Shown here piece by piece: positions 6,146 to 35,260 of a stretch of DNA of 37,091 nt. The notes beneath the pieces were generated by a model. That model made no database searches. It saw only the letters and a program-made list of their open reading frames with translations, and was not told the origin of the DNA. The position numbers and the translations under genes are program-made. The DNA is from Prevotella sp. (lineage in GTDB: Bacteria; Bacteroidota; Bacteroidia; Bacteroidales; Bacteroidaceae), in NCBI GenBank assembly GCA_017474925.1, contig JAFVGN010000057.1, positions 1-37,091 on the forward strand, read 5' to 3'. Positions within the stretch are counted from its first letter, which is position 1; every line of letters starts with the position of its first letter.

Positions 6146-6195
6146 TGTGTCAGGGATCAGTTCCTGACACATAGGTCATCGCATGAGTGATGACC
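6146..6195 (+). terminator. Two consecutive hairpins after the toxin gene
   Basis: TGTGTCAGG at 6146-6154 pairs with CCTGACACA at 6163-6171. GGTCATC at 6174-6180 pairs with GATGACC at 6189-6195. The stems are 9 and 7 bp with 8-nt loops. The second is followed by a short mixed T tract (CTTTGTTGG), so termination is plausible but not certain. Confidence 0.5.
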
Positions 6196-6393
6196 CTTTG
6201 TTGGTTTAAGATAATAGTAAACACAAAAAAATATATGGCAGAAAGAAAACGTATTTACCTTTGTCTGGCGCATATGTCGGACGAGGGGATTGAACAGAAG
6301 TATATCAAAGAGGCGTTTGATACGAACTGGGTGGTACCGTTGGGCCCAAACGTAAACGCATTCGAGAAGGAACTCGAGCGTTTCGTTTGTTCC

Positions 6394-6427
6394 CAAATGA
6401 GAAATGAGAAATTAGAAATTAGAAATG
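6394..6427 (+). repeat. Intragenic AAATGAGAAATGAGAAATTAG-type repeat in the aminotransferase
   Basis: Four short units of the form GAAATKA lie between the conserved FEKELERFV and KRVVALSSG blocks. They encode an extra segment of about 14 residues (MRNEKLEIRND) without breaking the frame. Confidence 0.7.
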
Positions 6428-7137
6428 ACCTTGCCAGTAAGCGGGTGGTGGCGCTGTCGTCTGGAACTTCTGCCGTTCATCTGGCGCTGATAGCGTGTGG
6501 CGTGGGGCCTGGTGATGAGGTGTGTGTACAGTCGTTCACGTTCTGTGCATCGTCACATCCTATTACTTACCTTGGTGCTAAACCTGTGTTCATTGACTCG
6601 GAGAAGGATACTTGGAACATGGATCCGGAACTGTTGGAGGTGGCTATCAAGGACCGCAAGGAGAAGACGGGTAAGTACCCGAAGGCGATTGTACCTGTGG
6701 TTCTCTACGGTATGCCGTACAAGATTGACCGTATCATGGAGATTGCGGACAAATACGAGATTCCTGTGATTGAGGATGCTGCTGAGGGCTTTGGCTCTAA
6801 ATTTAACGGCCAGGTGCTTGGTACGTTCGGCAAGTATGGTGTGCTGTCGTTCAATGGTAACAAGATGATTACGATGTCGGGTGGGGGGAGCACTGATTAC
6901 CGAGAATGAGGACGAGTGGCGCGAGATTATGATGTACGCGACACAGTATCGCGAGAGCTATCCGTACTACCAGCACGAGAAGATTGGGTATAACTACCGT
7001 ATGTCGAATATCTGTGCGGGTATCGGACGCGGCCAAATGACGGTGGTGAATGATCATATTGCTCATCATAAGAAGGTTCAGAAGTTGTATGAAGAGTTGC
7101 TGGCTGGAGTTCCCGGTATTACCGTGCACTCGCAGCC

Positions 7138-7276
7138 GGTTCAAGGTTGCCTTTCAGGCGAGTCTGCTCACGCTCGGGACAACTCAAACGAGCTTGGTTC
7201 TCCACTCGCTCATTCGCAGACTTCAAAGGTTCAAGGTTCAAGTCCTGAAACCTTTAACGTGAAACCTGAAACCGCT
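7138..7276 (+). repeat. Intragenic composite repeat insertion in the aminotransferase
   Basis: Between GITVHSQP and YDSNYWLC about 45 extra codons appear. The first half (about 7170-7217) has the layout of the dispersed promoter element (CGCTCGG... CTCAAA... CTTGG... ACTCGCTCATTCG), but the -7 box is missing. The second half is AAAGGTTCAAGGTTCAAG followed by CCTGAAACCTTT, which are inverted arms. Confidence 0.7.
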
Positions 7277-7530
7277 GTCTACGACAGCAACTACTGGCTA
7301 TGTACGATAACGCTGGATCCGGATATGAGGATTAAGGGGCAGGAGAATGCCTACAAGACCATCGTGACGGGTGCCGTGGGTGGTGCAGCAGGTGTGATTC
7401 ATGCGGCTTCGTCGGCAATAACGGACTGCCAGCCGAATGATAACGTAGAGGCATTGCGTGTGGCTCTCGATAAAGCCCAGATTGAGGCAAGGCCGGTATG
7501 GAAGCCTATGCACAAGCAGCCGGTGTACAG

Positions 7531-7580
7531 AAAGGGTTCAGGGTTCACGGTTAAAGGTTCAGGGTTCACTTGTGAAACCT
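7531..7580 (+). repeat. Intragenic GGTTCAGGGTTCAC-type repeat in the aminotransferase
   Basis: AAAGGGTTCAGGGTTCAC is followed by a near-identical AAAGGTTCAGGGTTCAC and by GTGAAACC, which inverts it. The insertion encodes GSGFTVKGSGFT and keeps the frame open. Confidence 0.7.
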
Positions 7581-7837
7581 ACGAAAACAGTGTGGCGTAT
7601 GTCAATGGAGTTTCTGAAGAGATATTCAAAATAGGTATGTGCTTGCCGGCAGGGCCGTATGTTAGTGATGAGGATGTGAAGTATATTGTGGAGTGCATCA
7701 AGAATGCTATGGAATAACCTTGACCTACTGTCGACCTCTCTCACGACTCGACAAAGTTAAAGCGAGTTTTGCTTTGTGCTCACTGCTCCATCGGTTGACT
7801 GATGTGTTCTTTTCGAAAAGAACCAAAAGGAATTGTC

Positions 7838-13887: not shown

Positions 13888-15183
13888 TTAGAGGAAAGGT
13901 TGCAGCAAGTGGGCAAACCAACCACGGAATTTCTGCCATCCAGTCCGGAACTCATCCCATGACTCGTCAGTCAGTTCAAAGCTTTTCTGCTTGTCACGGT
14001 AGAACATGTCGTCCAGTTCGCGAGTCGTGGCAGGGTCGATGACAACGGCATTCTCCTCAAAATCACATTTCAAGCTACGGGCATCAAGATTGGTGCTGCC
14101 AACAGTACAGAACAGACCGTCAACCATCATAATCTTTGAATGGTGGAAGCCTGGTTTGTAGAGCCAGACCTTGGCACCGCGCTTCATCAGCTTGCGGGCC
14201 TGATAGAGTGCGCAGTCGGGGGTCAGGGGGATGTCGCTCTTCGATGAAAGCATAATCTCCACTTTTACTCCACGACGGATGGCTTTTGTCAAGGCACGTG
14301 TGACAGAGGGTATCAGCGTGAAGTAAGGGTTGATGATGTGTATGGAATCCTTAGCCTGGTTGATGGCGTTGATGTAGAATGTGCGCATGATTTTGGGCGT
14401 CACATGGGGTTCCCGGTTGATGATGCCTATCATTTTACTGCCTGCAGTATAGGTCGTGTCAGGTTTCAGGTCTTTGAAAACAGTCGGTGTTCCGCCACGA
14501 TAGTATTTCGCACCATGGACGTTCTGCCTTGTTGTGCGATTCCAGATGCGCAGGAATATAGCTTGCAGTTCATTGACAGCATCCCCCTCAATGCGACAAT
14601 GCATGTCGCGCCATTCGCCTACCACCTCGGTACCTCTTATATAATAGTCGGCAACGTTCATGCCTCCGGTGTAGGCTATCTTCCCGTCGATGACGACAAT
14701 CTTGCGGTGGTCACGGCCAAAGATGTGGTTGACCCAGGGAAAGCGTATCGGAGAGTATTCTACAATCTCTATGCTGTCGGCACGCAGGGCTTTCAGGTGA
14801 TATTTCTTGAGGGGCTGGTTGTTGGAGTCGTTGCCAAAGCCGTCGAACATGGCACGTACTTCTACCCCTTCGCGACGTTTTTCACGAAGGATATCAAACA
14901 ACAGCGACGCAATAGAGTCGTTGCGGAAGTTGAAATATTCAAGATGGACGCTACTCTTGGCCTGTCGGATGGCAAGGAACATGTCATCGAACTTCTGCTG
15001 TCCTGACATCAGCAGTGCGACACTGTTGTCGTAAGAGAAGCGGATGCCGCTTTCGCGCAAGGTCTGTACAATGAGTGAGTCGCTTCTCTGTGCGAACGCC
15101 TGAAACGGTAAAAGGGTAAAAAGGTAAAAAACGATTAAACTAATCCGCTGATTGGTTCTCCCAAATAAAATCTTCTGTCTCAT
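13888..15183 (-). CDS. Phospholipase D / cardiolipin synthase-like protein
   Basis: The 431-residue protein contains two complete HKD motifs. They are DHRKIVVIDGKIAYTGGMN at about residues 158-177 and HHSKIMMVDGLFCTVGSTN at about 345-364. This matches bacterial cardiolipin synthases of the ClsA/ClsB type, which join two phosphatidylglycerol molecules. It lacks the usual two N-terminal membrane helices. Instead it starts with one hydrophobic segment ending in QAFAQ, which looks like a cleavable signal peptide, so the enzyme may act in the periplasm. Other PLD-family activities, such as a phospholipase or nuclease, remain possible. It lies 52 bp downstream of the giant regulator gene, in the same direction as kdsA and kdsD, possibly as the last gene of that unit. 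A 21-bp inverted repeat encloses its start codon. Confidence 0.85.
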   Translation of the reverse strand: MRQKILFGRTNQRISLIVFYLFTLLPFQAFAQRSDSLIVQTLRESGIRFSYDNSVALLMSGQQKFDDMFLAIRQAKSSVHLEYFNFRNDSIASLLFDILREKRREGVEVRAMFDGFGNDSNNQPLKKYHLKALRADSIEIVEYSPIRFPWVNHIFGRDHRKIVVIDGKIAYTGGMNVADYYIRGTEVVGEWRDMHCRIEGDAVNELQAIFLRIWNRTTRQNVHGAKYYRGGTPTVFKDLKPDTTYTAGSKMIGIINREPHVTPKIMRTFYINAINQAKDSIHIINPYFTLIPSVTRALTKAIRRGVKVEIMLSSKSDIPLTPDCALYQARKLMKRGAKVWLYKPGFHHSKIMMVDGLFCTVGSTNLDARSLKCDFEENAVVIDPATTRELDDMFYRDKQKSFELTDESWDEFRTGWQKFRGWFAHLLQPFL

Positions 15184-15235: not shown

Positions 15236-18200
15236 TTATTTCCTGTTCCTCATGCGATACTCCAATGGAGTCATACCAAACTTCTCCTTGAAGATGGAAG
15301 CAAAGTTCTCTGCAGTCTGGAAACCAACGTTGATGGCCAACTCGCTCATGTTGATATTGGTGCTCAACAGCAAGGTGCAGGCATGCTTCAGTCGCAACTC
15401 ACGGACAATTTCTGCCGGGGTCTTGGTGGTAATGGCACGTACCTTGTGGTAGAAGGGTACGCGACCCATACCCATGGCACTGGCCATCTCTTCCAGACTG
15501 ATCTGGCCACGGCTCATGTTCTGCAGTACGAACTGCTCAATATTACGCATGAGCTGCTGATCCATGGCATTGCTCATGGAGTAGTCACCGATGGTGTTGT
15601 CGCCATAATACTGCTGCATCAGGAAGATACCGCTCTGTTGGCTTGATGCTGCTTCGGCAGCTCCTGCGGCCTTCTCTTCCTGTTGTGTGGTGCTCTCTTC
15701 GTCTGGCAAAGCCTTGGTTGGCTTGACGGTACCTTCATCTTCGTAGGAGAACGATGCTGTGGTCATACTGGCATTGCGGCCTTCCAGCCTACGGGTCTCG
15801 CGGCCCTCAATGGTGTTCTGCTCCATTTCGATAGGTCCAAGACCCATCAGCTTGTTGAAACGCATGACGGCCTCTTGGATATTGAACGGCTTGGCGAGGT
15901 AGTCATCGGCAGCAAGTGTAATGTTCTGGTTGTTCATGTCCTGCTGGGTCAGCACACCGTCGGTAAGTAGCACGAACTTGGTCTTGCTGCGACGTGGATC
16001 CATCTTGAACTGGTTACACAGCTCACTACCCGTCATGTAATCCATATTCTGCTTACAGATGACGAGGTCTGCATCGAGCATCTCAATGTCAGGCAGGGCA
16101 TCCTTGATGTTGTCGTAGGTGTGGAAGTCGTAGACCTCGCGCAGATGAGCGTTGATAAAGGTTAGGAACTCGCGGTTGGAGTCGATGAATACAACGCTGA
16201 ATTTCTTGGCCTGTGTGTCGAACTTCAACGGCTTGATGTCGGCAGTAAGTTCCTTCGTTGTCGCATTGGATATCAGGGCAACCTCGCCATGGTCGTTTAG
16301 CTCCATGCGGTCTTTGGCCGTGGATTCTGCCTTTCTTTCAGGATTCTCCAACGTAGACTGCATCTCTGAAATTCGGGTGATGACTTGCAGCAGCTGGAAG
16401 TGGAGAGAGTTCAGCTGTTCGCGTCCTTCCATCGTTTCTTCCTTCATGGCCAGATTGCCGATGATGGTGGTCATACGTGCCATAGGCTGACGCAGGTCGT
16501 CGCTCGTCAGCTTGATTTCCTCACGCTGACGTTTCAGCTCGTCAATGACGGTGCGCTTGCTCATCCATATCTTCTTCACCTTTTTGTAGCCGAAGCGCCA
16601 TACAGCCAGGATGATAATGGCGATGATGACATAGATAGTCAGCATCCACCAAGAAATCCACCAAGGACGGTCGACGGAAATCTCAAGGGTGCGCTCCTGA
16701 TTGCTGACGGCACCGTCGGCACTGACAGCTTTCACATGCAGGGTATAGTTGCCGCTACTGAGATTCGTGAATTTGACTCCATGTAACAGGGCATCACCAT
16801 TGCGCCAGTCATGGTCCAGACCTTCCATCCAGTACATGAATTGTAAGCGTTCGCTCTGGTTGTAGTTGCCTGCAGCAAACTTGATGGTAATGGTGTTCTG
16901 GTTGTTGCCAAGCTCCAGTTTGGAACTCTCGTTCATTGCTTGTGTCAACAGAACGCGTCCATCGTATTCATGTCCAGTCAAGATTTCCTCTTCACCTACG
17001 AAAAGCTGGGTCAGCATGACGCGCGGCAGCGATTCCTGATCGTCCTTGTTGCCTTGGCGTACCCAGTTGACACCGTATAGTCCTCCAAAGAGTACGATAC
17101 CGTCGTTTCTGGTCATGATAGAGCCAATATTGAACTCGTTGCTCTGCAGGCCGTCATAGACACTGTAGTTGTAGAGACCGTAATTGAAGGTTCCGTCCTC
17201 ATGGTTACGCTGGATGACGACACGGCTGATGCCATTGCTGGTGGTAATCCAGATGTTGTGGTTCTTGTCTTCTGCAATACCGCAGATGGAATTATTGCAA
17301 AGTCCGTCTTTCTCGGTCAGATGACTCAGATTGTCGTTCACCAGGTTGAGAATGTTGATGCCTTCACGTGTTCCAATCCAAATCAGACCGCGTGAGTCCT
17401 CATAAACCTGTGTGATATAGTTGTTGGTAAAGGTTTCCAGATTGGTCGTGTTACCTGTCAGTATCATCTTTTCGCGCGTTGACAGGTTCAGGATAATCAG
17501 ACCTTCAGAAGTTCCAATCAGCATGTTGTTGTTCTTGCCATAGAACAGCGAGGTAATGTTGTTGGTGTTCAGCATGCCGTTCTCACGGGTGTACGATGAG
17601 AACGAGTTCATCTTCGGATTATATACTTGAAGTCCACCGTTGGTGGCAATCCACAGGTTGCCCGACTTATCGCTGCAGAGGGCGTTGATGTGGTCGTCAA
17701 TGACCGTCTTGATGCTGTCACGGGCTACGGAGTAGAATTTGCTGGTGCCATTCTGGATACGTGTCAGTCCGTTCTGCTTGGAACCAACCCAGAGGCTTCC
17801 GTCAGACGTTGTGGCCATGCAGGTCACTTTCGTACTGGCCAAGGGACCATTGTAGCCTAAAATTCCCTGAGAAGCTGTTCCGTACCAAATGGTGCTGTCG
17901 CTGGTCTGGGCAATGGCTGTAACGTCGCCTACCAAGTCGGTGGAGAACTTATAGATGTTGCTGCCATAGTAGGCAACGCCCGATTTCTCGGTTCCCACCC
18001 ACAACAAGTCGGTATCGTCTACGTAAACACTCTGGATGGATATGTTTTCATTGACAATGCGGTTGTCGTTGATGTTACGTGGCTGAACACTTTCAATCTC
18101 GCTGGTGTTGTTGACATTGGTGCGGAGCAATCCCCCACGGTCTGTACCAATCCATATGTTGCCGCTTCGGTCGCCTGTCATACCGTTGACACTGTGGTCT

Positions 18201-19003
18201 ACGGCTATGCTGCTCAGTCCCAGACGATCGCCATAGGCGGTGTTCCACGTATTGGCATTCTTGTTGTAAATCATCAGGGTTCCTTGTCCGTAAAGCCAGA
18301 TGTTGTCCATCTGGTCAGCAAAGGCCTTCAGCGATTTAGTCTTGCGCAGGTGCTGTTGGGCAACAAAGTCGCTCTGCCATACTGTTTGCTGCTGGCGCAT
18401 GATGTCACAGCATACCAGACGTCCGTCTTCATAGACGAGGATCGTACCGTCACGACACTCGCTGATGGAGCTGATGTTACCCTGCGGGATACCGTGGGCA
18501 TCGTTCGTATAGGCAAACGGATAACTTGTCTGCTGCTGCATGTTGTATGCGATGACTCCCTTGTTGGGTATGGAGGCCCAGAAGTTCTTATGGCGGTCGA
18601 TAAACACCACATTGGGCTTGCCGTCTATACCCATGCTGGTATAGGTTTGCTTCAGGTCGCGTTCAAAACTCTCAGACTGTGGATGATAGATACAGAATCC
18701 TGCCGAGGTTTCTATCCATAGGTTGCCGTCCAACATCTCCTGAATGCTTATAATGTAGCTGTCGGGAAGTGAAGAACCGTCCTGCGAGTTACTTTGGAAG
18801 TTCTTGAACGTATAGCCGTCAAAACGGTATAGTCCGGCTGGGGTTCCAAACCACATATAACCTCGCTGGTCTTTCAGTATGCAGTTAATCTGACTGCTTA
18901 TCAGACCATTACGCGCATCAAGCGTTTTAAAAAGATAGACACCAGCTGCTGCCATGGGCAGTGCAAGCATGATGATTAGCAGTATTCTTTTCAGTTTGTT
19001 CAT
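15236..19003 (-). CDS. HTCS-type sensor/regulator with degenerate kinase and receiver domains
   Basis: The 1255-residue protein has hybrid two-component (HTCS) architecture. A signal/membrane segment (residues 5-22) is followed by two-component-regulator propeller repeats (about 30-690, many GYMWFGTPAGLYRFDG-like units), a Y_Y_Y domain (about 700-770) and a membrane helix (about 782-803). A coiled segment, a receiver-like domain (about 930-1045) and a C-terminal AraC-type HTH pair (about 1150-1254) complete it. The enzymatic parts are altered. The H-box reads SDDLRQPM where SHEFRTPL is usual, so His is Asp. No HATPase domain exists between about 895 and 930. In the receiver, the phospho-acceptor position in LVICKQNM is Lys, although the Lys in DDYLAKPF and the Thr in LLTD remain. 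It should bind a periplasmic ligand and control transcription without phosphotransfer. It follows kdsD by 12 bp, suggesting cotranscription with Kdo synthesis. Confidence 0.85.
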   Translation of the reverse strand: MNKLKRILLIIMLALPMAAAGVYLFKTLDARNGLISSQINCILKDQRGYMWFGTPAGLYRFDGYTFKNFQSNSQDGSSLPDSYIISIQEMLDGNLWIETSAGFCIYHPQSESFERDLKQTYTSMGIDGKPNVVFIDRHKNFWASIPNKGVIAYNMQQQTSYPFAYTNDAHGIPQGNISSISECRDGTILVYEDGRLVCCDIMRQQQTVWQSDFVAQQHLRKTKSLKAFADQMDNIWLYGQGTLMIYNKNANTWNTAYGDRLGLSSIAVDHSVNGMTGDRSGNIWIGTDRGGLLRTNVNNTSEIESVQPRNINDNRIVNENISIQSVYVDDTDLLWVGTEKSGVAYYGSNIYKFSTDLVGDVTAIAQTSDSTIWYGTASQGILGYNGPLASTKVTCMATTSDGSLWVGSKQNGLTRIQNGTSKFYSVARDSIKTVIDDHINALCSDKSGNLWIATNGGLQVYNPKMNSFSSYTRENGMLNTNNITSLFYGKNNNMLIGTSEGLIILNLSTREKMILTGNTTNLETFTNNYITQVYEDSRGLIWIGTREGINILNLVNDNLSHLTEKDGLCNNSICGIAEDKNHNIWITTSNGISRVVIQRNHEDGTFNYGLYNYSVYDGLQSNEFNIGSIMTRNDGIVLFGGLYGVNWVRQGNKDDQESLPRVMLTQLFVGEEEILTGHEYDGRVLLTQAMNESSKLELGNNQNTITIKFAAGNYNQSERLQFMYWMEGLDHDWRNGDALLHGVKFTNLSSGNYTLHVKAVSADGAVSNQERTLEISVDRPWWISWWMLTIYVIIAIIILAVWRFGYKKVKKIWMSKRTVIDELKRQREEIKLTSDDLRQPMARMTTIIGNLAMKEETMEGREQLNSLHFQLLQVITRISEMQSTLENPERKAESTAKDRMELNDHGEVALISNATTKELTADIKPLKFDTQAKKFSVVFIDSNREFLTFINAHLREVYDFHTYDNIKDALPDIEMLDADLVICKQNMDYMTGSELCNQFKMDPRRSKTKFVLLTDGVLTQQDMNNQNITLAADDYLAKPFNIQEAVMRFNKLMGLGPIEMEQNTIEGRETRRLEGRNASMTTASFSYEDEGTVKPTKALPDEESTTQQEEKAAGAAEAASSQQSGIFLMQQYYGDNTIGDYSMSNAMDQQLMRNIEQFVLQNMSRGQISLEEMASAMGMGRVPFYHKVRAITTKTPAEIVRELRLKHACTLLLSTNINMSELAINVGFQTAENFASIFKEKFGMTPLEYRMRNRK

Positions 19004-19015
19004 AGCCTTATTGTT

Positions 19016-19969
19016 TTACAACACACATGCATAACGGTCGACGATACCGAGCAGATGGCGCTCTTCGTCGACTACCAGTACATTGTGTATCTTATATTTG
19101 TTCATCGTTTTTTGTATCTCCGATATTTTTGTTTGCAGTCCCACCGTCTTGGGTTGGCGGGTCATGATGTCTGCCACGGTGCGGTTGAAGAACTCTGCCT
19201 GCCATTTCTCCATGGCACGTCGGATGTCACCGTCGGTGATAAGTCCGCTGATACGTTCGTCCCTGATGGCGACACCCAGTCCCAGCTTGCCTTTACTTAC
19301 CAGGATGATGGCTTCGCCCAGGTGCATGTCCTCAGTCAGGATGGGCAGGTTCTCCGTCAGCATCACGTCTTGGGCAGTGGTGAGCAGGCGCTTGCCTAAC
19401 TCTCCGCCAGGATGGAACTGGGCGAAGTCCTGTGGCTGGAAGTTACGTTTCTCCATCAGTGCTACGGCCAGTGCGTCGCCCATGACCAGAGTGGCGGTGG
19501 TGCTGCTGGTTGGAGCCAGATTCAGCGGACAGGCTTCTTTCTTCACGCTGATGTTCAGGTGGCACGTAGAGTATTTGGCCAACAGCGACTGCGGATTGCC
19601 GCTCATGCCGATGATGGGAATCTCCATGTGCAGCACCATGGGAATGAAGCGCAACAGTTCGTCAGTCTGTCCTGAGTGGGAGATGGCCAACACCACGTCT
19701 CCTTTCGACATCACTCCAAGGTCGCCATGATAGACGTCAAGGGGATTGATGAAAAACGAGGGTGTGCCCGTCGAGGCCAGCGTTGCTGCTATCTTTGCCC
19801 CGATGTGTCCGCTCTTTCCCACGCCAGTGACAATGACTTTGCCTTGGCACTGCATGATGAGTTCTACGGCACGGTCAAAGTTATCGTCCATCTGCGGTAT
19901 CAGGTCCAGCACCGCTTGTGCCTCGTCCTGAATACATTGTATTGCGTATTCTCTTACTGTCACTTTCAA
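19016..19969 (-). CDS. kdsD: Arabinose-5-phosphate isomerase (KdsD/KpsF family)
   Basis: The enzyme interconverts ribulose 5-phosphate and arabinose 5-phosphate, the first step of Kdo synthesis for LPS. The 317-residue protein has an N-terminal SIS domain (about 35-170, with VTGVGKSGHIGAKIAATLAS and ISHSGQTDEL), the linker motif FHPGGELGKRL, and two CBS domains (about 200-317). These three features in this order are diagnostic of the KdsD/KpsF/GutQ family. The neighbouring kdsA 4 bp upstream in the same direction supports the Kdo role over gluconate or glucitol metabolism. It is followed after 12 bp by the giant regulator gene. Confidence 0.93.
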   Translation of the reverse strand: MKVTVREYAIQCIQDEAQAVLDLIPQMDDNFDRAVELIMQCQGKVIVTGVGKSGHIGAKIAATLASTGTPSFFINPLDVYHGDLGVMSKGDVVLAISHSGQTDELLRFIPMVLHMEIPIIGMSGNPQSLLAKYSTCHLNISVKKEACPLNLAPTSSTTATLVMGDALAVALMEKRNFQPQDFAQFHPGGELGKRLLTTAQDVMLTENLPILTEDMHLGEAIILVSKGKLGLGVAIRDERISGLITDGDIRRAMEKWQAEFFNRTVADIMTRQPKTVGLQTKISEIQKTMNKYKIHNVLVVDEERHLLGIVDRYACVL

Positions 19970-19973
19970 CGTT

Positions 19974-20732
19974 TCAACTGTTCAATTGTTCGATGACGCC
20001 TTCCAACTTTTCCAATTCCAGCATGTTGGCAGCGTCGCTGAGACCCTGGTCTGGTGTCGGGTGAACTTCAAAAAACCATCCTGTGGCCCCGAAGGCTTTG
20101 GCAGCCAGGGCCATCTGGGGTACATAGCGACGGTCGCCGCCAGTCTTGCCGTCAGCTCCTCCCGGACGTTGCACGCTGTGGGTACAGTCCATGATGACGG
20201 TGGGTACTATCTCTAGCATGTCAGGGATGTTTCGGAAGTCAACTACCAGGTTGTTGTATCCCATCATGTTGCCTCGTTCTGTCAGCCAGACATCGGTGGC
20301 TCCGGCATCCATGGCTTTTTCCACGGGGTAGCGCATGTCGCGTCCACTCAGGAACTGGGCCTTCTTGATGTTGACAGTCTTTCCCGTATGTGCGGCTGCA
20401 ACGAGGATGTCGGTCTGGCGGCATAGGAATGCAGGAATCTGCAAGACGTCAACCACCTCGCCTGCCGGCTTGGCCTGCCATGCTTCGTGAATGTCCGTAA
20501 GGATCCTCAGACCGTATTTCTCTTTTACGTCGTTCAGCATCTGCAGACCTTTGTCAATACCAGGTCCCCGGAAGGATCTGATTGACGTGCGGTTGGCCTT
20601 GTCAAAGGAGGCCTTGAATATGATGTCGGTTCCTAGCTTTGCATTGATTTCCACCAACTTGGCTGCTACGGTGTCAAGCAGTTCAGCCGATTCAATGACG
20701 CATGGTCCCGCAATAAAAGTCTGTCCTGTCAT
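19974..20732 (-). CDS. kdsA: 3-deoxy-8-phosphooctulonate synthase (Kdo-8-phosphate synthase)
   Basis: KdsA condenses phosphoenolpyruvate with arabinose 5-phosphate, the product of the adjacent KdsD, to give Kdo 8-phosphate. The 252-residue protein begins MTGQTFIAGPCVIES and contains IFKASFDKANRTS, the family loop RSFRGPGIDKGL, LTDIHEAWQA, FLCRQTD and DCTHSVQRPGG. The cysteine in GPCVIES is the position that is metal-binding in class II enzymes, though the metal class was not checked. The start is ATG 20732 and not the upstream TTG at 20759, because that TTG is part of the promoter -7 box. Expected 5' leader length is about 20 nt. It is probably the first gene of kdsA-kdsD-regulator, possibly extending to the PLD gene. 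Confidence 0.95.
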   Translation of the reverse strand: MTGQTFIAGPCVIESAELLDTVAAKLVEINAKLGTDIIFKASFDKANRTSIRSFRGPGIDKGLQMLNDVKEKYGLRILTDIHEAWQAKPAGEVVDVLQIPAFLCRQTDILVAAAHTGKTVNIKKAQFLSGRDMRYPVEKAMDAGATDVWLTERGNMMGYNNLVVDFRNIPDMLEIVPTVIMDCTHSVQRPGGADGKTGGDRRYVPQMALAAKAFGATGWFFEVHPTPDQGLSDAANMLELEKLEGVIEQLNS

Positions 20733-20756
20733 GAAGTCAGTATCGATATTACCTTG

Positions 20757-20764
20757 CAAAGGTA
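20757..20764 (-). promoter_or_regulatory. -7 promoter box TACCTTTG for kdsA
   Basis: On the minus strand GCTTACCTTTGCAAGG contains the consensus box. It lies 24 bp before ATG 20732 and decides the kdsA start, because the alternative TTG start would be inside the box. Confidence 0.75.
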
Positions 20765-20803: not shown

Positions 20804-23140
20804 TTATCTCGAAGTGTCTTTTATGTGTACATCTTGTTGTGGGAATGGTATCTCAATACCGTTGGCGTTGAGGGTGTCGTAGATGCATTTCAGCACGTCG
20901 CTGATGACATACGATTTCTTGGGGGCATCGGCCCATACGAACATTTTCAGGTTGATGCCCGAGTCGGCCAACTCGCCTACGACTGACTTGACCTGCTTCG
21001 TTTTGTCCATCCATTTGTGCTTCATCTGGTTGACAGCTCCGTCAACCAACTGTATGACTTGCTGCAGGTTGGAACCGTATGCCACGCCGTAGGGTACTAC
21101 GGCCAGCACATAGCCGTGGTTACGGGTCAGGTTCTTGTAGTTGTTAGTGAAAAGCTGTGAGTTCTGGAAGGTGATGATTTCACCGTATAGCGACTCGATA
21201 ATCGTTGACGTGTAGCTGATGCTGGTCACTCGGCCCATAGTCCCGTTGACCTCAATCCAGTCGCCAACCTTGATGCGACCGGTCATCAGGGAGGCACCGT
21301 AGAAGATGTTCTCGATGATGTTCTTCGATGCGAAACCGATACCTGTTGACAGACCGCCCGTGATGGCTAACAACCATGAGACACTAATGTGCAGGATGCT
21401 GAGCGACAAGAGCAGCCAGGTTCCCCAGATGATAATCTGGATGGCATTCTTCGACATGGCCGTACGGCTGTCAGCTGACGATGGGTCTTTGCTCTGGAAA
21501 TGCAGGTACAGCAGCTTCAGCAGGGTCTTGCTCAGATAGGAGAACAGGAAAAACAGACACACGACCATCGTAATCTTGATGATGCTGACTTGGATGTTCT
21601 CCATGTCTATGAAGCGGTAGTTGAAGATGCGCCAGCAGAGGTCGGAGAGATTGAACACGTCAGCGGCCCACCAGATGCTCAGCATGATGCTGATGACGCT
21701 CAGTGAGGGTAGTATCGCCTGGTACATCAGGTCGTAGCCCCAGGTCTTGGTGACAGGCTTTTCCTCAAAGTGGTGTCTCTTTCCATACAGCTTCAGGTAC
21801 TGGCTGATACAGGTGATGGTAAGGATACAGGTCAGTTGCATGATCCACCATATCAGCACCTGTACGGCCATCAGGGTGTAGCCCACCCATGAGCAGATGA
21901 CGGAGGCGGTGAAGACCATCAGCGAGATGTAGGTGTAGAACATGTCTGAACGTGGAACGTTCTTGTTGTGCCGTTTGATGACGCTCCATTGCCATATTGC
22001 GCATGCCAGCAGTACCGGAGGGAATAGTATCTTTACCAATTCGCTGGGAATCAGCACTATGCGGAACACGATGACCAGGAAGCCTACGACAATCAAGGGC
22101 GTGTAGATGCGGAATGCACTTTTGATCTGGTCGCCACTGACGCGAAGCAGCAGCGACATCAGTATGACGCCCAGCAGCCAGGCATACGTCACGAGCAAGT
22201 TGGCTGCCATGATGAAGAAGTTCTGGTCGGTGATGGCCAGCATGATGCCTAAGATGACGGCAAAAGTGACCGTCGTCGTGGCCATAGTGATGCAGGTCCG
22301 CTTCTTCATGAACTCCTCGGTACGTAGCTTCTTGGGTATCACATAGCGGATGGCAGTAAAGTTAAGTGCCGAGGCGATGATGACATAAAAAACGATGCTG
22401 ATCAACAGGCCGAAAATCCAGCGGCTGTCCCATTGCGAATTGTCCGTAGGCTGGTACTTCTTAGCCACTGTTCCCTTCATGTTCCGCCAGTAGAAAGCCC
22501 AGTTCCTCAGGATGCTGTAATACGACTCGCCACCATTTTTGAAGATGCTGGTCTGTATGTCGTTGTAGCGCTTGTTGGCATAGTCATTCAGACGTGAGAG
22601 ACGTTGCTCGGTGACTTGGTATATGTGGATATAGTCCGCCAGTTCCGAACGGTTGTCTTCCAGCGTGTTGCGTATGCTGGTGGCCAGCGTCAGACATACG
22701 TTGCGGTCGGTCTTGGTGGCAGCGTCGAGCATGTTTGTGGGCATGGCCTGCAGACTGTTGATCAGCGAGTCGTAACGGGCAATCTCGCCGTTGGTCTTGT
22801 TCATGAACGACTTGAAAGGCAGCTGCTGCCGTTGGAATTCCTGATAGAGCTCAGTCGCTTCATGGCAGGCATAGGTCAGGTCGAACACGTACTCCTGCTC
22901 CTGTGAATAGAGCATCAGAGAGTTCTGGTTCGAACGTTTCATGATGGTGATGAGCTGGTCGCGCACGATTTCGTTCTGCTTCTGGTGCCTGATCATTCGT
23001 TCTGACAGTTCCATGTGATATTTGGTCAGTTCCGTGCGCAGAATCTGAAGTGTCTGGCTTAAGTCTTTTTCCTTTAATACTGCATGACACTGAAACGTCA
23101 GCAACAAAAGGGCTATAATAATGGAGATTCGTTTCGTCAT
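20804..23140 (-). CDS. Large MscS-family mechanosensitive channel
   Basis: The 778-residue protein has a signal peptide (1-20) and a periplasmic helical, coiled-coil-like region (about 25-210). Roughly ten membrane segments and the MscS core follow near the C-terminus. The pore helix and beta domain are recognised by ITGGLSTGIGFASKN (about residue 593) and GRIKVGDWIEVNGTMGRVTS, followed by NSQLFTNNYKNLTRN. It resembles the MscK/YbdG-type enlarged MscS proteins, which release solutes on hypo-osmotic shock. It is a paralogue of the protein encoded at 27814-30483, with the same layout and the same ending (DVHIK versus DVHLV). It lies 70 bp from kdsA in the same direction and has its own promoter. 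Confidence 0.9.
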   Translation of the reverse strand: MTKRISIIIALLLLTFQCHAVLKEKDLSQTLQILRTELTKYHMELSERMIRHQKQNEIVRDQLITIMKRSNQNSLMLYSQEQEYVFDLTYACHEATELYQEFQRQQLPFKSFMNKTNGEIARYDSLINSLQAMPTNMLDAATKTDRNVCLTLATSIRNTLEDNRSELADYIHIYQVTEQRLSRLNDYANKRYNDIQTSIFKNGGESYYSILRNWAFYWRNMKGTVAKKYQPTDNSQWDSRWIFGLLISIVFYVIIASALNFTAIRYVIPKKLRTEEFMKKRTCITMATTTVTFAVILGIMLAITDQNFFIMAANLLVTYAWLLGVILMSLLLRVSGDQIKSAFRIYTPLIVVGFLVIVFRIVLIPSELVKILFPPVLLACAIWQWSVIKRHNKNVPRSDMFYTYISLMVFTASVICSWVGYTLMAVQVLIWWIMQLTCILTITCISQYLKLYGKRHHFEEKPVTKTWGYDLMYQAILPSLSVISIMLSIWWAADVFNLSDLCWRIFNYRFIDMENIQVSIIKITMVVCLFFLFSYLSKTLLKLLYLHFQSKDPSSADSRTAMSKNAIQIIIWGTWLLLSLSILHISVSWLLAITGGLSTGIGFASKNIIENIFYGASLMTGRIKVGDWIEVNGTMGRVTSISYTSTIIESLYGEIITFQNSQLFTNNYKNLTRNHGYVLAVVPYGVAYGSNLQQVIQLVDGAVNQMKHKWMDKTKQVKSVVGELADSGINLKMFVWADAPKKSYVISDVLKCIYDTLNANGIEIPFPQQDVHIKDTSR

Positions 23141-27813: not shown

Positions 27814-30483
27814 CTAATTCTGAACCAGGTGTACGTCGCATTGCGGGAAGGCGATGGTGATGCCGGCAGCGTTGAGGGCCTCGTAGATGACCTCCTTGGC
27901 ACGGTCCATATAGCCAATTCGCTCAGCCACGAGCACGTACTGTTTCACGTTGATATCCACAGCACTATCGCTCATGTTGCCGACGACCACATAGACGCCA
28001 TACTTGGGATCCACGATTTCGCGACCGTAACGGTCCTTGGTACACATTTTCTGCATGGCTTCCACAAGCACCTCGCGCACTCGTTGCACTTCAGTGCCGT
28101 AGGCCACGCCTACAGTAATGATAGTAAGCTCGTATGAGTTGTTGCGCGTCAGGTTGTTGAAGTTCTTGCCAAAGAGCGACGAGTTGAGGAACGACATTTC
28201 CGTGCCCTCGATGGTCTCTGCCTGTACGCACTGATAATTGATGGCGGTCACTTTGCCACGAATACCGTCACACTCGATCCAGTCGCCTACACGCAGGCGT
28301 CCACCCATCAGCTGGATGCCGTAGATGAAGTTGTTGATGACATCCTTCAGCGCAAGACCGATACCTGCCGACAAGCCTCCAGCTATCAGTCCCAGTGAAC
28401 CTGTAGGAATCTGCCATACGGAAATGACCACCACAGCGAATAACATCCAAATAAGTACGCTGATGATACTGTTGCCCAACGACAGGTTGATTTCATTGGG
28501 GCGGATAGAGGTACGGTTGTGTCTGCGCATGAATGCAAAGTAGCGGGCGTATTGCCAAATGGCATGAATGGCCCGACTGACGTAACGCAAGATATAGAAG
28601 AGTGCCAACAGATAGACAATGCTCCTTGCAGAGACCCTTAATGTCTCAACACCATTCGTGTCAAAGAGATTGACAAAGGGATTCTCGTAGAATTTTACGA
28701 ACAGGTCGTCAAAGTCGAAGATGCTTAACGACAGACGCACACACAACGGCAGGGAGAGCAACACGATGGTGGGAATTGCCACCTGACGGATGAAGTCGTA
28801 GAACCAGGTGGCACCAAACAGCAGCGACTCGCGGTCTTCGCCCGACACGTAAGTAATGCGCTTGCGCATGCTCTCCACCCGCTTGTCCAGCCAGCGTTCT
28901 TTGTATCGGTTCATCAGGTCCAGAATACAGACCACAGTCAGCCAGGCTGCCAACAGGAAATACCACCACACCAGAATGAGCAAAGCCACAAAGGTGTAGC
29001 CCAGGAAGGCAAACACGAAGGCAACAAGATAGACGGCCAATGACACCCAGCCCAACGTGCGGTCAATGGATGTGGCTTTACCGCTGAACCAGATGCAGCA
29101 GCATAACTGCCATATAACAATCAGCAGCAGGATGGGTGGGAACAGGAGCACCATCAGCTTGTCGGGTACGAAGGTGATGCGGCAGGAAATGATGATCAGC
29201 ACCACTAAGAAAGTGGCGGAATAGAGCAGGAAACCTTGCCGGAACTGGTCGGGCTTTACACGGAGCAGCAGTGAGCTTGTGATGGCAATGAGCAGCCATA
29301 GGAAGGTGTTGACGTGCTCCACACCCAAATTGATATATTCATCGCCATACAAGGAGAAGCCAAATACCAGGAAGTAGACGATGGTACCGATTAGTATCGA
29401 GATGATAGACACCTTCTTCTTGGGAATGTAACGCTTCAGTCGCGTGAAGCGATGAAGCAGCTTGAGAACCAGCAGCGTCAGGAGCCAGAAGAAAGCCAGC
29501 ACGACTACTTGAATGACACAGACAATCACCAACAAGGTATTTTCGGCCTTACTGGAAAGATGCTGGAAAAACTTGGAATCATCCTCTTCTTCAGAGGCAT
29601 TTTCAGTATGATCGGTTTCATCAAGACATTTATTCAATTCGTGCAAGCTGTACTGTCCGTGCAAATCCACCTTCGTCTTTTTCCAAAAGTAGCCTGGATT
29701 TGCCATAATGTCCAGAAACGGTGTCTGCCCATCCAAAAAGACATAGCGTTCCAGTTCCCGATAGCGCGACTCGGCATAGTCGTAGGCCTCCTTCAAGCGC
29801 AGGTACGCCTCCTGGTAGTGTGTGCTGTCAGCAATCACGGTAGCCCGGTTGTTGGCGTTCATTTTCAGGATTTCCGAGACAAAGAAGATGCAGGAGTCAC
29901 GCAGCGTCTCACCTACCGAGTCCAAGACAAAGGGAGTCGAGAGCGAATCCTTAAAGGCAATCCTGATAACCTCCATTTCCAACGAAGAGAGCGAGTCTGA
30001 CATGTGAATTTCCAGTGAGTCGTTGCGGTACAACAAACTGTCTGGCACGATTTCCATCTCTATCTCCTTCTTCATCGGTGGCAGTCTGCGCAGGGCCTCT
30101 ATGAGTCGAGCATTGCGGTCAATCTCGTAGTTCAGATTGTTAACGATGTGGTCATACGGTCTACGGTCCCCGTTGAAGGCTTTGTAGTTAGCCGTCACCT
30201 TCTTCAGGGCATAGGCCAGGTCGAAGGTCATTTCCTGTTCCTGCGTGTAGAGCAGGATGGAGAGTTCGTTCGACTCAGTAATGACGTCAATCATCCGTTG
30301 ATGTTGGCGGTCAAAATCCTCGTTGAAGCGCTGCTGCGCATCTGCACGCTGTTGGTAGGCAGCTTGCAGCTCCAAACAAAGGTCTTTTAGCGTATTGGTC
30401 AACGAACGACCGCTCACGACAGCCATGAGCGGGAGAGAGCACACACATAGTGCAAAAATGAGCGTCAGAACATATTTTTTCAT
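27814..30483 (-). CDS. Second large MscS-family mechanosensitive channel
   Basis: The start is ATG 30483 (MKKYVLTLIFALCVCSLPLM), giving 889 residues. The 22 residues upstream in the open frame come from promoter sequence and are not credible. After the signal peptide come a long periplasmic helical region (about 25-320), about ten membrane segments, and the MscS core IAGGLSAGIGLALKD (about residue 698), GRLRVGDWIECDGIRGKVTA and NSSLFGKNFNNLTRN. The paralogue at 20804-23140 shares this layout but is about 110 residues shorter, mainly in the periplasmic part. Function is probably osmotic-shock release, with possible differences in gating threshold. Confidence 0.9.
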   Translation of the reverse strand: MKKYVLTLIFALCVCSLPLMAVVSGRSLTNTLKDLCLELQAAYQQRADAQQRFNEDFDRQHQRMIDVITESNELSILLYTQEQEMTFDLAYALKKVTANYKAFNGDRRPYDHIVNNLNYEIDRNARLIEALRRLPPMKKEIEMEIVPDSLLYRNDSLEIHMSDSLSSLEMEVIRIAFKDSLSTPFVLDSVGETLRDSCIFFVSEILKMNANNRATVIADSTHYQEAYLRLKEAYDYAESRYRELERYVFLDGQTPFLDIMANPGYFWKKTKVDLHGQYSLHELNKCLDETDHTENASEEEDDSKFFQHLSSKAENTLLVIVCVIQVVVLAFFWLLTLLVLKLLHRFTRLKRYIPKKKVSIISILIGTIVYFLVFGFSLYGDEYINLGVEHVNTFLWLLIAITSSLLLRVKPDQFRQGFLLYSATFLVVLIIISCRITFVPDKLMVLLFPPILLLIVIWQLCCCIWFSGKATSIDRTLGWVSLAVYLVAFVFAFLGYTFVALLILVWWYFLLAAWLTVVCILDLMNRYKERWLDKRVESMRKRITYVSGEDRESLLFGATWFYDFIRQVAIPTIVLLSLPLCVRLSLSIFDFDDLFVKFYENPFVNLFDTNGVETLRVSARSIVYLLALFYILRYVSRAIHAIWQYARYFAFMRRHNRTSIRPNEINLSLGNSIISVLIWMLFAVVVISVWQIPTGSLGLIAGGLSAGIGLALKDVINNFIYGIQLMGGRLRVGDWIECDGIRGKVTAINYQCVQAETIEGTEMSFLNSSLFGKNFNNLTRNNSYELTIITVGVAYGTEVQRVREVLVEAMQKMCTKDRYGREIVDPKYGVYVVVGNMSDSAVDINVKQYVLVAERIGYMDRAKEVIYEALNAAGITIAFPQCDVHLVQN

Positions 30484-30518
30484 TGTCTCGTTATCGGAGT
30501 TACAGCTTAAATTTCTTG

Positions 30519-30526
30519 CAAAGTTA
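30519..30526 (-). promoter_or_regulatory. -7 promoter box TAACTTTG for the second MscS gene
   Basis: The minus strand reads CTCTCG, a T run, CGTAACTTTGCAAG. An 8-bp palindrome (AAATAAAT-ga-ATTTATTT) lies just upstream, as in the queC promoter element. The start codon is 36 bp downstream. Confidence 0.7.
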
Positions 30527-30785
30527 CGAAAAAAACGAGAGCAGAACAAAATAAATTCATTTATTTTTTATGCCGAAGTGTAGTAACTTCGCGGTCTCTG
30601 ACCGCAATGTTACGAAAAGTCGAGAGAAATGCAAAAGAAAAACTCGTTTTTCTTCTCATTTCCGAGACGAAGTAACTTCGGCAGAGCCAATGTTACGAAA
30701 AAACGAGAGAAATGCCAAATTTATTTGAGCTTTTCCGAGTGCAGAGTAAGTTCGGCAGAGCCAATGTTACGAAAAAAGCTTGTAA
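30519..30785 (-). repeat. Tandem imperfect copies of the palindromic promoter element
   Basis: Anchors of the form AATGTTACGAAAA occur at 30606, 30689 and 30763, matching the promoter copy AAAGTTACGAAAA at 30520, with spacings of 86, 83 and 74 bp. Read on the minus strand, each distal copy has CTCGGAAA, a palindrome, ATTTCTCTCG and TTCGTAACATTG, one base off the -7 box. AAGTTACTTCG-type palindromes separate them. No protein gene is seen between 30550 and 31027. Confidence 0.75.
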
Positions 30786-31027: not shown

Positions 31028-31772
31028 ATGAGAAGTACTTTTAACATTCTGTTCTATGTGAACATTTAGAGTCCCTTGGTAAGGGGCGGCTATAATGCAG
31101 GGTTATCATGGGCAGGGTTACGATTAACGGTACCCAGAGCCAGTTCTGTTGCAAGAAGACTATCCCGCTTGACATGTGGGATGTGAAGGGCAACTGTGGC
31201 AAAGGCCGCAGCAAATTTTGACCGAGGAGGAACTGAAGGCCGTCGTAACCCATGAGTTCGAGGATGACAATCTCGCCTTCGTTCGTGATATTTTTGTATT
31301 CGTGTGCTTCACCGCCCTATCGTTCATCGACGTGAAGAACCTGACGACAGATAACATCGTGGATATCAACGGTGATAAGTGGATTATCAGCAAGCGACAC
31401 AAGACCAACATCCCCTTCCAAGTGAAGCTGATGGACGTACCCTTGCAGATTATCAACCGCTACAAACACCTACAGGAAGACAAGTTGGTGTTCGGCAAGA
31501 TGAACTACTGGTCGATGTGCAAGAAGCTGAAAACGGTGATGACAGCCTGCGGCATTGAGAAAGCCATCTCCTACCATTGCGGCCGGCACTCATTCGCAAC
31601 CTTGGCACTTTCAAAGGGCATGCCCATCGAGAGCGTGAGCCGTGTATTGGGACACACGAACATCGTGACCACCCAGATTTACGCCCGCATCACAAGCTAG
31701 AAACTTGACAACGATCTGACGATGCTCGGCAATAAACTCAACGCATCATTCAAGAATATAAAGAGAACATAA
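31028..31772 (+). pseudogene. Tyrosine recombinase (integrase) remnant, Bacteroidetes type
   Basis: The normal start MRSTFNILFYVN is at 31028-31063, but the frame is then interrupted by a 44-bp insertion, copy 2 of the direct repeat. The arm-binding region resumes at 31108 (MGRVTINGTQSQFCCKKTIP, then LWDVKG-like DMWDVKG) and stops at 31219. The catalytic domain follows directly in a third frame from ILTEEELKAVV, so the core-binding domain has been deleted. Catalytic motifs remain: CGRHSFATLAL (HxxR type), LGHTNIVTT and the Tyr of IYARIT. A premature TAG at 31698 separates the C-terminal tail (KLDNDLTMLGNKL) ending at 31772. The gene cannot make a working integrase. It marks this edge as an old integration site. 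Confidence 0.85.
31064..31107 (+). repeat. Direct repeat, copy 2, interrupting the integrase 5' end
   Basis: It shares ATTTAGAG, CCCTTGGTAAGGG and CGGCTATAATGCAGGG with copy 1 at 30844-30888. It introduces a stop after codon 13 of the integrase. Confidence 0.8.
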
Positions 31773-34210: not shown

Positions 34211-35260
34211 ATGGCAAGCGAAATAGCAGAAACAAAAGCAATTGAGCAGGTAAGTGATAGCCTTTATAAGGGAGTATCCGACATTATTGACAATGCACGG
34301 CAAGAGGTTGTCGTATATGTAAACAAACATTCTGACTTGATGTTCTGGCATATAGGCCATTACATCAATGAGGATATGGGCTACAAGCAGTATTCCGCCT
34401 ATGGCAGCAAAATTCTTGCGACACTGTCGCAAAGATTGACTGCGCGTTATGGCAAGGGATATACCTATACTGCTGTCACAAGGATGATGAAAGTTGCTCG
34501 TTTTTATAGCGACGAAGAAATGTTTGCGACACTGTCGCAAACATTAACGTGGAGTCATTTTTTGGAACTCGTTACCATAGAAGATAATAACAAGCGATTG
34601 TTCTATCAACAGATGGGCATTGCTGAGCATTGGAGTGTCAGGCAGTTACGAGACAAACAGGATGAGATGGCATACGAACGTTCTTTGATAGCTGTAAAAC
34701 CTGAAGATGAGATCGTTAAGACTCTTGAAAGGGTGACTCCAACCCACATGGAGCCAGATGTAGTGCTACGCAATTCATACGTGCTGGATTTCTTGGGACT
34801 GAACGGCTACTATTCCGAAGAAGAACTGGAAGATGCTATCGCCAAACAGTTAGAGGCTTTTATCCTTGAGCTTGGACAAGGTTTCGCTTTCTTGGAGCGT
34901 CAGAAACGTTTCACAATTGATGGCACAGACTATTATCTTGATTTGCTTTTCTATCATCGAAAGTTGAAGTGCCTGATTGCTATTGACCTCAAACTTGGAA
35001 AATTCAAACCTCAATATAAAGGGCAGATGGAATTATATCTCAAATACCTGCAGAAATATGATATGCAACCAGATGAGAATCCACCTATCGGTCTTCTGCT
35101 ATGCAGCGAAGGTAATACAGAACATATTGAACTGATGATGCTGAACGAAGATCACATTAAAGTGGCTCAATACCTTACCTGCCTACCAGATAAGCAGTGG
35201 TTTATTGACAAACTCAATCGTTCAATACTCATTGCTAAGGAATATAATGACAAGCGCTAA
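34211..35260 (+). CDS. YhcG/DUF1016-family PD-(D/E)XK nuclease
   Basis: The 349-residue protein has the N-terminal DUF1016 winged-helix region (about 15-175, with ARQEVVVYVNKHSDLMFWHIG and LTWSHFLELV). The C-terminal PD-(D/E)XK domain (about 190-340) contains YYLDLLFYH near residue 243 and IAIDLKLGKF near 259, giving the D...D-x-K catalytic pattern. The E of the family's usual D-E-x-K is Asp here, which is common in YhcG. YhcG proteins often sit in defence islands or beside restriction systems, but their role is poorly known. None of the usual partners is present. A 12-bp direct repeat GCTAAGGAATAT spans the stop (35234-35245 and 35256-35267). It lies 24 bp after the protease gene and may be cotranscribed. 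Confidence 0.88.
   Translation: MASEIAETKAIEQVSDSLYKGVSDIIDNARQEVVVYVNKHSDLMFWHIGHYINEDMGYKQYSAYGSKILATLSQRLTARYGKGYTYTAVTRMMKVARFYSDEEMFATLSQTLTWSHFLELVTIEDNNKRLFYQQMGIAEHWSVRQLRDKQDEMAYERSLIAVKPEDEIVKTLERVTPTHMEPDVVLRNSYVLDFLGLNGYYSEEELEDAIAKQLEAFILELGQGFAFLERQKRFTIDGTDYYLDLLFYHRKLKCLIAIDLKLGKFKPQYKGQMELYLKYLQKYDMQPDENPPIGLLLCSEGNTEHIELMMLNEDHIKVAQYLTCLPDKQWFIDKLNRSILIAKEYNDKR
34416..34432 (+). repeat. 17-bp palindrome TTGCGACACTGTCGCAA, copy 1
   Basis: This perfect inverted repeat lies inside the YhcG coding sequence and encodes LATLSQ. A second identical copy is 108 bp downstream. Confidence 0.85.
34524..34540 (+). repeat. 17-bp palindrome TTGCGACACTGTCGCAA, copy 2
   Basis: Identical to the copy at 34416-34432 and in the same reading frame (FATLSQ). 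The spacing of 108 bp is 36 codons. Confidence 0.85.

Follow-up and report, generated by a model that had tools for sequence, protein, structure and literature searches.

In the hybrid two-component systems (HTCSs) of Bacteroidota, as described by Gao, Wu and Stock (2024, PMC11253607), the S/CHIP motif in the α3-β4 loop of the receiver is a part of the contact that keeps the DNA-binding domain inactive. The same work describes BT4236 of B. thetaiotaomicron as an HTCS with Gln in place of the His, for which its authors suggest a phosphorylation-independent mechanism. Among the atypical regulators described in another source, 18 of 20 are orphans, and the mechanisms of bacterial pseudo-receivers are termed there a mystery (PMC12632262). 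Here, we analyzed a contig of Prevotella sp. (GenBank assembly GCA_017474925.1, contig JAFVGN010000057.1, positions 1 to 37,091 of the forward strand; this whole stretch of 37,091 nucleotides is called the window), where the minus strand at 15236..19003 encodes a 1255-aa degenerate transcription regulator of the HTCS architecture, designated by us as pHTCS. Most probably, pHTCS represents an HTCS chassis turned into a transmembrane transcription regulator that works independently of phosphorylation. The initial annotation of the window, made from the sequence alone, had already pointed in this direction, but its statement that known HTCS proteins depend on phosphotransfer was too absolute in view of BT4236 (PMC11253607).

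The frame of pHTCS is uninterrupted over 1255 codons, as annotated initially. According to Pfam, the protein bears a periplasmic sensor composed of a Reg_prop propeller (residues ~25-700 with approximate boundaries, 16904..18931; 117 bits over the protein) and a Y_Y_Y domain (residues 713-777, 16673..16867; 40 bits). A hydrophobic run judged by eye to be a likely transmembrane helix (residues ~785-806, 16586..16651) leads to a DHp-like segment (residues 813-885, 16349..16567) and then to a pseudo-receiver (residues 937-1054, 15842..16195), whose fold is recognized by Pfam as Response_reg (41 bits) and supported by hhalign, with the acceptor Asp missing. The C terminus is occupied by an AraC-type DNA-binding domain (residues 1173-1251, 15251..15487; HTH_18, 63 bits, and also HTH_AraC). 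Both the sensor and the output of an HTCS are thus present with matches above the cut-off, whereas no Pfam match to HisKA or HATPase_c was obtained for the protein.

To locate the sites of phosphotransfer, we compared pHTCS with intact HTCSs by profile alignment. The stretch SDDLRQPM aligned to the H-box SHELRTPL of the intact HTCS DHp (hhalign probability 80.7, E 1.3e-5), thus indicating that Asp835 (16499-16501) occupies the position of the phospho-accepting His. The stretch LVICKQNM matched the SDVMMP stretch of intact HTCS receivers, ungapped from the acceptor to the following G-x-E-L-C, with Lys984 (16052-16054) placed on the acceptor Asp (probability 99.8, E 8.9e-29). As a control, His and Asp were found at the same columns in all 20 HTCS relatives with DHp, ATPase and receiver matches. 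The linker between the DHp-like segment and the receiver gave no alignment to an ATPase domain in the profile comparison, and in the 113 orthologues described below it comprises 49-57 residues, so that there is no room for such a domain; an ATPase domain hidden in the linker was therefore rejected. These data bear out three losses named in the initial annotation, i.e., Asp for His, Lys for Asp and the absence of the ATP-binding domain. With no ATPase domain, no H-box His and no receiver Asp, pHTCS is devoid of the elements required for the canonical His-to-Asp relay. None of the three relay features was found and, as judged from its sequence, pHTCS is an HTCS in architecture but not in mechanism.

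To collect the orthologues, we scanned genome contigs and took the best 80 of 242 loci, which are 62-88% identical to pHTCS and align with it from residue 25 or earlier to at least residue 1251. Together with further loci of the same genus, this gave 135 sequences, reduced to 113 by removing 22 rows (21 identical over the last 900 residues and one at least 97% identical); the lowest identity to the window protein in this set is 55%, and the open frames range from 1242 to 1408 residues. The H-box position is occupied by Asp in 94 orthologues, Glu in 19 and His in none, and the receiver acceptor position by Lys in 112, Arg in one and Asp in none. Thus, no homologue in the set has the normal His or Asp, and the replacements, together with the missing ATPase domain, are conserved across the family, which is the outcome the proposed homologue comparison had called for. 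The surroundings of both sites were retained: in the H-box, Leu and Pro840 are present in 113/113 and Arg838 in 112/113; in the receiver, Asp941 and Lys1038 in 113/113 and Thr1014 in 111/113. The Ser of the acidic pair (Ser942, 16178-16180) had been counted initially as one more agreeing loss. It is real in the window but, as the second residue of the pair varies across the orthologues (Asp 61, Ser 29, Asn 16, Thr 6, Gly 1), it is not a family trait.

We further calculated the ratio of nonsynonymous to synonymous substitution rates (dN/dS). For the window gene and its orthologue L001 it was 0.043 for the propeller, 0.020 for the DHp-like segment, 0.051 for the receiver, 0.025 for the AraC domain and 0.202 for the second linker. 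The DHp-like and receiver segments gave values of 0.010-0.106 in six of eight pairs, the other two being saturated there. Taken together, these comparisons allow us to conclude that the degenerate DHp and receiver are held by purifying selection with the replacement residues fixed, in agreement with the initial proposal of a selected protein devoid of canonical phosphotransfer.

The old active site of the receiver has changed further. After the conserved Thr, all 20 intact controls have Ala. In the window this residue is Asp1015 (15959-15961), and the 113 orthologues have Asp (95), Glu (16) or Asn (2) at this position; the loop beside this Thr is longer by two residues in pHTCS than in intact HTCSs. 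This suggests that an acid next to Lys984 may form a salt bridge replacing the phospho-chemistry. Asp after the Thr was also found in the g149 relatives (see below) and in L099, where the acceptor Asp is retained, so that this change may predate the acceptor loss. Two candidates for a substitute phospho-site were considered and set aside. A shift of the acceptor to a nearby acidic residue is not favored, position 986 being Asp in 76/113 and hence not constant, and a His in DHp helix 2 was dropped because, by eye, His is also found there in several ordinary HTCSs.

Of 277 genomes of the genus, 91 yielded a pHTCS match, and with a stricter quality cut the count was 85 of 266. The listed matches are free of internal stops, and two of them, in G638 and G693, are truncated on the N-terminal side. 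In a smaller sample, where all candidates were scored, 22 of 60 genomes had pHTCS, one copy each; the order, family and 277-genome genus scans scored two or three best candidates per genome, and the one-copy statement rests mainly on the sample of 60. A recent gain by transfer was rejected, as a tree of the flanking kdsD and PLD genes (59 rows) requires three changes among 57 labelled rows. This tree covers 14 of the 186 genomes in which pHTCS was not matched, and its two outgroup rows have long branches; it is compatible with the ancestral presence of pHTCS followed by three losses.

Outside the genus, only more distant relatives were detected. Among 197 genomes of the order, seven had a match at E ≤ 1e-130, the window's own included, and the other matches scored at most 653 bits, far under the orthologue score. 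Among 299 genomes of the family, the top matches outside the genus were two g149 proteins (792-826 bits), followed by g153 proteins (622-683 bits), whose scores overlap those of ordinary HTCSs and of g158 proteins; matches were present in 2/6 genomes of the genus g149 and 8/15 of the genus g153. The g149 relatives lack the ATPase domain and have Glu or Gln in the H-box and Glu in the receiver, one of the two containing an internal stop. The g153 relatives lack both DHp and the ATPase domain, the receiver Asp being kept in 1/8 and lost in 7/8; the latter (L101, L102, L107 and L140-L143), with a membrane-linked receiver devoid of the acceptor Asp, represent another pseudo-receiver fusion. On a tree of the propeller and Y_Y_Y, built by a quick method from 50 rows and having long branches away from its pHTCS part, the pHTCS family joins g149 (SH-aLRT 99) and then g153 (89), and the loss of some relay part requires at least four changes. 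In the Bacteroidales genus g158, where the synteny looks the same by eye, the gene pairs L126/L127 and L128/L129 differ in relay content: one pair keeps DHp and the ATPase domain without the receiver, while the other has none of the three, which apparently reflects a stepwise loss of the relay. The differing losses in g149, g153 and g158 thus indicate that the relay was dismantled several times.

How might a regulator of this kind work? The periplasmic propeller and Y_Y_Y would sense a ligand or the envelope state, and the resulting change would travel via the membrane helix into the DHp-like dimerization bundle, where the H-box Arg and Pro are kept. This bundle would maintain the dimer and relay the sensor movement. 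The pseudo-receiver, perhaps locked in one state by the pairing of Lys984 with acidic residues of the old active site, would be a structural spacer or a domain for interactions that positions the AraC domains, so that the AraC pair would adopt or leave an arrangement able to bind DNA, the control being conformational. This would agree with the initial proposal that the signal is passed on through conformation or oligomerization alone. Such relay-free coupling is plausible because propeller-AraC proteins encoded in the same genome, as well as SusR, combine the sensor and the DNA-binding domain in one protein.

The genes around pHTCS follow one another on the minus strand in the order MscS, kdsA, kdsD, pHTCS, PLD. 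A PLD-family gene (13888..15183), encoding a cardiolipin-synthase-like protein (TIGR04265, 277 bits, under the cut-off of 290), lies 52 bp downstream of pHTCS, and a kdsD-like gene for arabinose-5-phosphate isomerase of the KpsF/GutQ family (19016..19969) lies 12 bp upstream, preceded by kdsA for 3-deoxy-8-phosphooctulonate synthase (19974..20759). A gene for an MscS-type mechanosensitive channel (20804..23140) is located 44 bp before kdsA and is not constant among the relatives; another large protein of the MscS type (911 aa, MS_channel_2nd 39 bits) is encoded on the minus strand at 27814-30549, about 5 kb from the first. In the best 80 of 242 loci, PLD follows pHTCS in 80/80 and kdsD precedes it in 77/80. 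Outside the genus, PLD lies near the relatives in L124 and, with one gene in between, L120; none was seen next to the g149 gene of L121 or the g153 genes of L125, L130 and L131. As PLD is present in 275/277 genus genomes and pHTCS in 91/277, PLD was rejected as an obligate partner of pHTCS.

The mechanically assigned TTG start of kdsA is doubtful, and the true start is probably a later ATG. The sequence TACCTTTG at 20757-20764 on the minus strand, which we take to resemble the Bacteroidota -7 element, overlaps this TTG, and a separate promoter may serve kdsA-kdsD-pHTCS-PLD. The position of pHTCS between kdsD and PLD is not within a polysaccharide-utilization locus: the scanned genes of the window showed no susC/susD pair, and a TonB-dependent receptor is encoded about 13 kb from pHTCS. 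It is plausible that the targets of pHTCS are its own operon neighbors kdsA-kdsD-pHTCS-PLD, i.e., envelope lipid or lipopolysaccharide genes, and not a polysaccharide-utilization locus.

Elsewhere in the window, a DegT/DnrJ/EryC1 aminotransferase is split between two overlapping frames at 6187-7717 (Pfam positions 7-182 and 181-266), which may reflect a frameshift. At the right end, a fragment-sized open reading frame of the phage integrase family (31176-31700) and a YhcG-type (DUF1016/PDDEXK) nuclease (34211-35260) are suggestive of a mobile or defence region.

Several observations weigh against pHTCS being a phosphorylation-independent regulator of its own neighborhood. The retained Asp941, Thr1014 and Lys1038 of the receiver might point to some remaining regulation. 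Synonymous sites are close to saturation, and for two of the eight pairs no dN/dS was obtained in all, or all but one, of the eight segments. PLD occurs in 275/277 genomes, and in those without a pHTCS match kdsD directly precedes PLD in 13 of the 14 inspected (the fourteenth has no kdsD match in the stretch), so these neighbors do not need pHTCS. Finally, no shared operator was visible upstream of MscS (18 rows), kdsA (12), pHTCS (20) and an NMT1-like gene (17) when promoter alignments were inspected by eye, without a motif-finding program; TAnnTTTG alone, which is presumably promoter-like, could be seen there.

A different explanation, which we consider unlikely though worth weighing, is that pHTCS is a constitutive DNA binder: with the S/CHIP-mediated inhibition gone, AraC would be always active, the periplasmic part would be mainly an anchor, and operon expression would set the activity. 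The contact motif, typical of most but not all HTCSs, is indeed absent from pHTCS, which has SKTK at this position (15977-15988), and its Pro was found in 0/113 orthologues vs. 19/20 intact controls, the exception being L090 (SHIL). Moreover, substitutions in the S/CHIP motif of BT4124 are described as giving phosphorylation-independent DNA binding (Gao et al. 2024, PMC11253607). However, the nearest intact HTCSs also depart from SHIP at the first two positions (e.g., ENIP, SGIP, SKIP) and, since 19/20 keep the Pro despite varying, it is chiefly the Pro loss that is distinctive for pHTCS. A mean column conservation of 0.80 for the propeller and 0.86 for Y_Y_Y (81 rows), i.e., as high as in the rest of the protein, would be unexpected for a mere anchor.

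A sensor-driven conformational switch remains our preferred reading, and it is rather improbable that pHTCS instead acts in trans, its DHp-like bundle associating with a different propeller protein into heterodimers in which pHTCS would be a pseudokinase partner or a dominant-negative. A candidate partner does exist: the best match to pHTCS elsewhere in its own genome, G000:C46 (L137:6832-9960, 1043 residues), has the layout propeller-Y_Y_Y-TM-ATPase without DHp, receiver or HTH matches, and so carries the complementary ATPase domain. When a 10-row profile (A3) built from its C-terminal part was run over the 277 genus genomes, such a protein (E ≤ 1e-50) was found in 49, all within the 91 pHTCS genomes, with a clear gap in scores (49 genomes with at least 188 bits, the next with at most 121), and in an earlier single-sequence search 47/47 matched genomes fell within the pHTCS set; in the family sample, it was present in 3/298 genomes, all three of this genus. 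Yet 42 of the 91 pHTCS genomes have no partner match at this threshold (G693 among them has a weaker candidate), and the partner distribution requires only three changes among 55 rows of the pHTCS tree, so that the overlap reflects few independent events. Furthermore, the two genes lie on different contigs in the window's genome, and pHTCS has no H-box His to phosphorylate. A special form of this idea, a split pseudo-HTCS in which nucleotide binding by the ATPase-only partner, not phosphotransfer, would gate the heteromer, appears highly speculative; if true, it would represent ATP-dependent yet phosphorylation-free signalling derived from a two-component system.

Just as improbable is another covalent control of the pseudo-receiver by Ser/Thr phosphorylation or Lys acetylation: modification of this kind has a described precedent in GlnR, an atypical regulator (PMC12632262), but nothing in the sequence points to it, and the conservation of Lys984 alone is no evidence. 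As for decay, a pseudogene or an assembly artefact, the loss of three functional elements would fit, but the same replacements recur in the open frames of 113 orthologues and dN/dS is far below 1, which makes this practically untenable; the hidden frameshift that the initial annotation had allowed for was rejected on the same grounds.

Phosphorylation-independent control by pHTCS would be of general interest. In HTCS proteins, the propeller-to-AraC coupling is hard to disentangle from phosphorylation, and the pHTCS family may provide a natural test of DHp and receiver as mechanical couplers, the chemistry having been removed and the mechanical parts retained by selection. It also hints at HTCS-like control of envelope genes outside polysaccharide utilization. 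A literature search by title and abstract opening in a single library found no description of this family; its novelty is nevertheless limited by SusR, the pseudo-receivers, BT4236 and three propeller-AraC proteins of the same genome.

With the HTCSs of Bacteroidota such as BT4124 and BT4663, pHTCS shares the Reg_prop/Y_Y_Y sensor, the single polypeptide, the DHp position, the receiver fold and the AraC output, but it differs in having no ATPase domain, H-box His, acceptor Asp or S/CHIP motif, and in the lack of a susC/susD pair seen in the window. BT4236 likewise lacks the H-box His; the comparison is based on its description, which gives the His loss and the motif CSIP-EK (PMC11253607). The SusR-like regulators resemble pHTCS in that a single membrane protein contains both the periplasmic sensor and the DNA-binding domain on the cytoplasmic side, whereas the SusR DNA-binding domain is described as unlike other families, and DHp- or receiver-like segments are not mentioned in the description used for comparison (PMC3878776). 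The pseudo-receivers and aspartate-less receivers described so far have the receiver fold without the acceptor Asp (PMC12632262, PMC4395418), but that of pHTCS differs in sharing one polypeptide with a transmembrane sensor and a degenerate DHp. The genome of the window, listed as 64% complete, also encodes intact HTCSs, namely L192 according to Pfam, and L194 and L197 as judged by eye. In addition, it has three proteins of the layout propeller-TM-AraC that gave no matches to DHp, ATPase or receiver (L193:1143-3758, L195:1361-3814, with Y_Y_Y under the cut-off, and L196:723-3119). The latter and their counterparts in other Bacteroidales (L103/L104 and L085/L086) are like pHTCS in having the propeller, a membrane helix (by eye) and AraC in the absence of the relay. 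Unlike these one-component proteins, which show no DHp or receiver matches at all, pHTCS retains both remnants.

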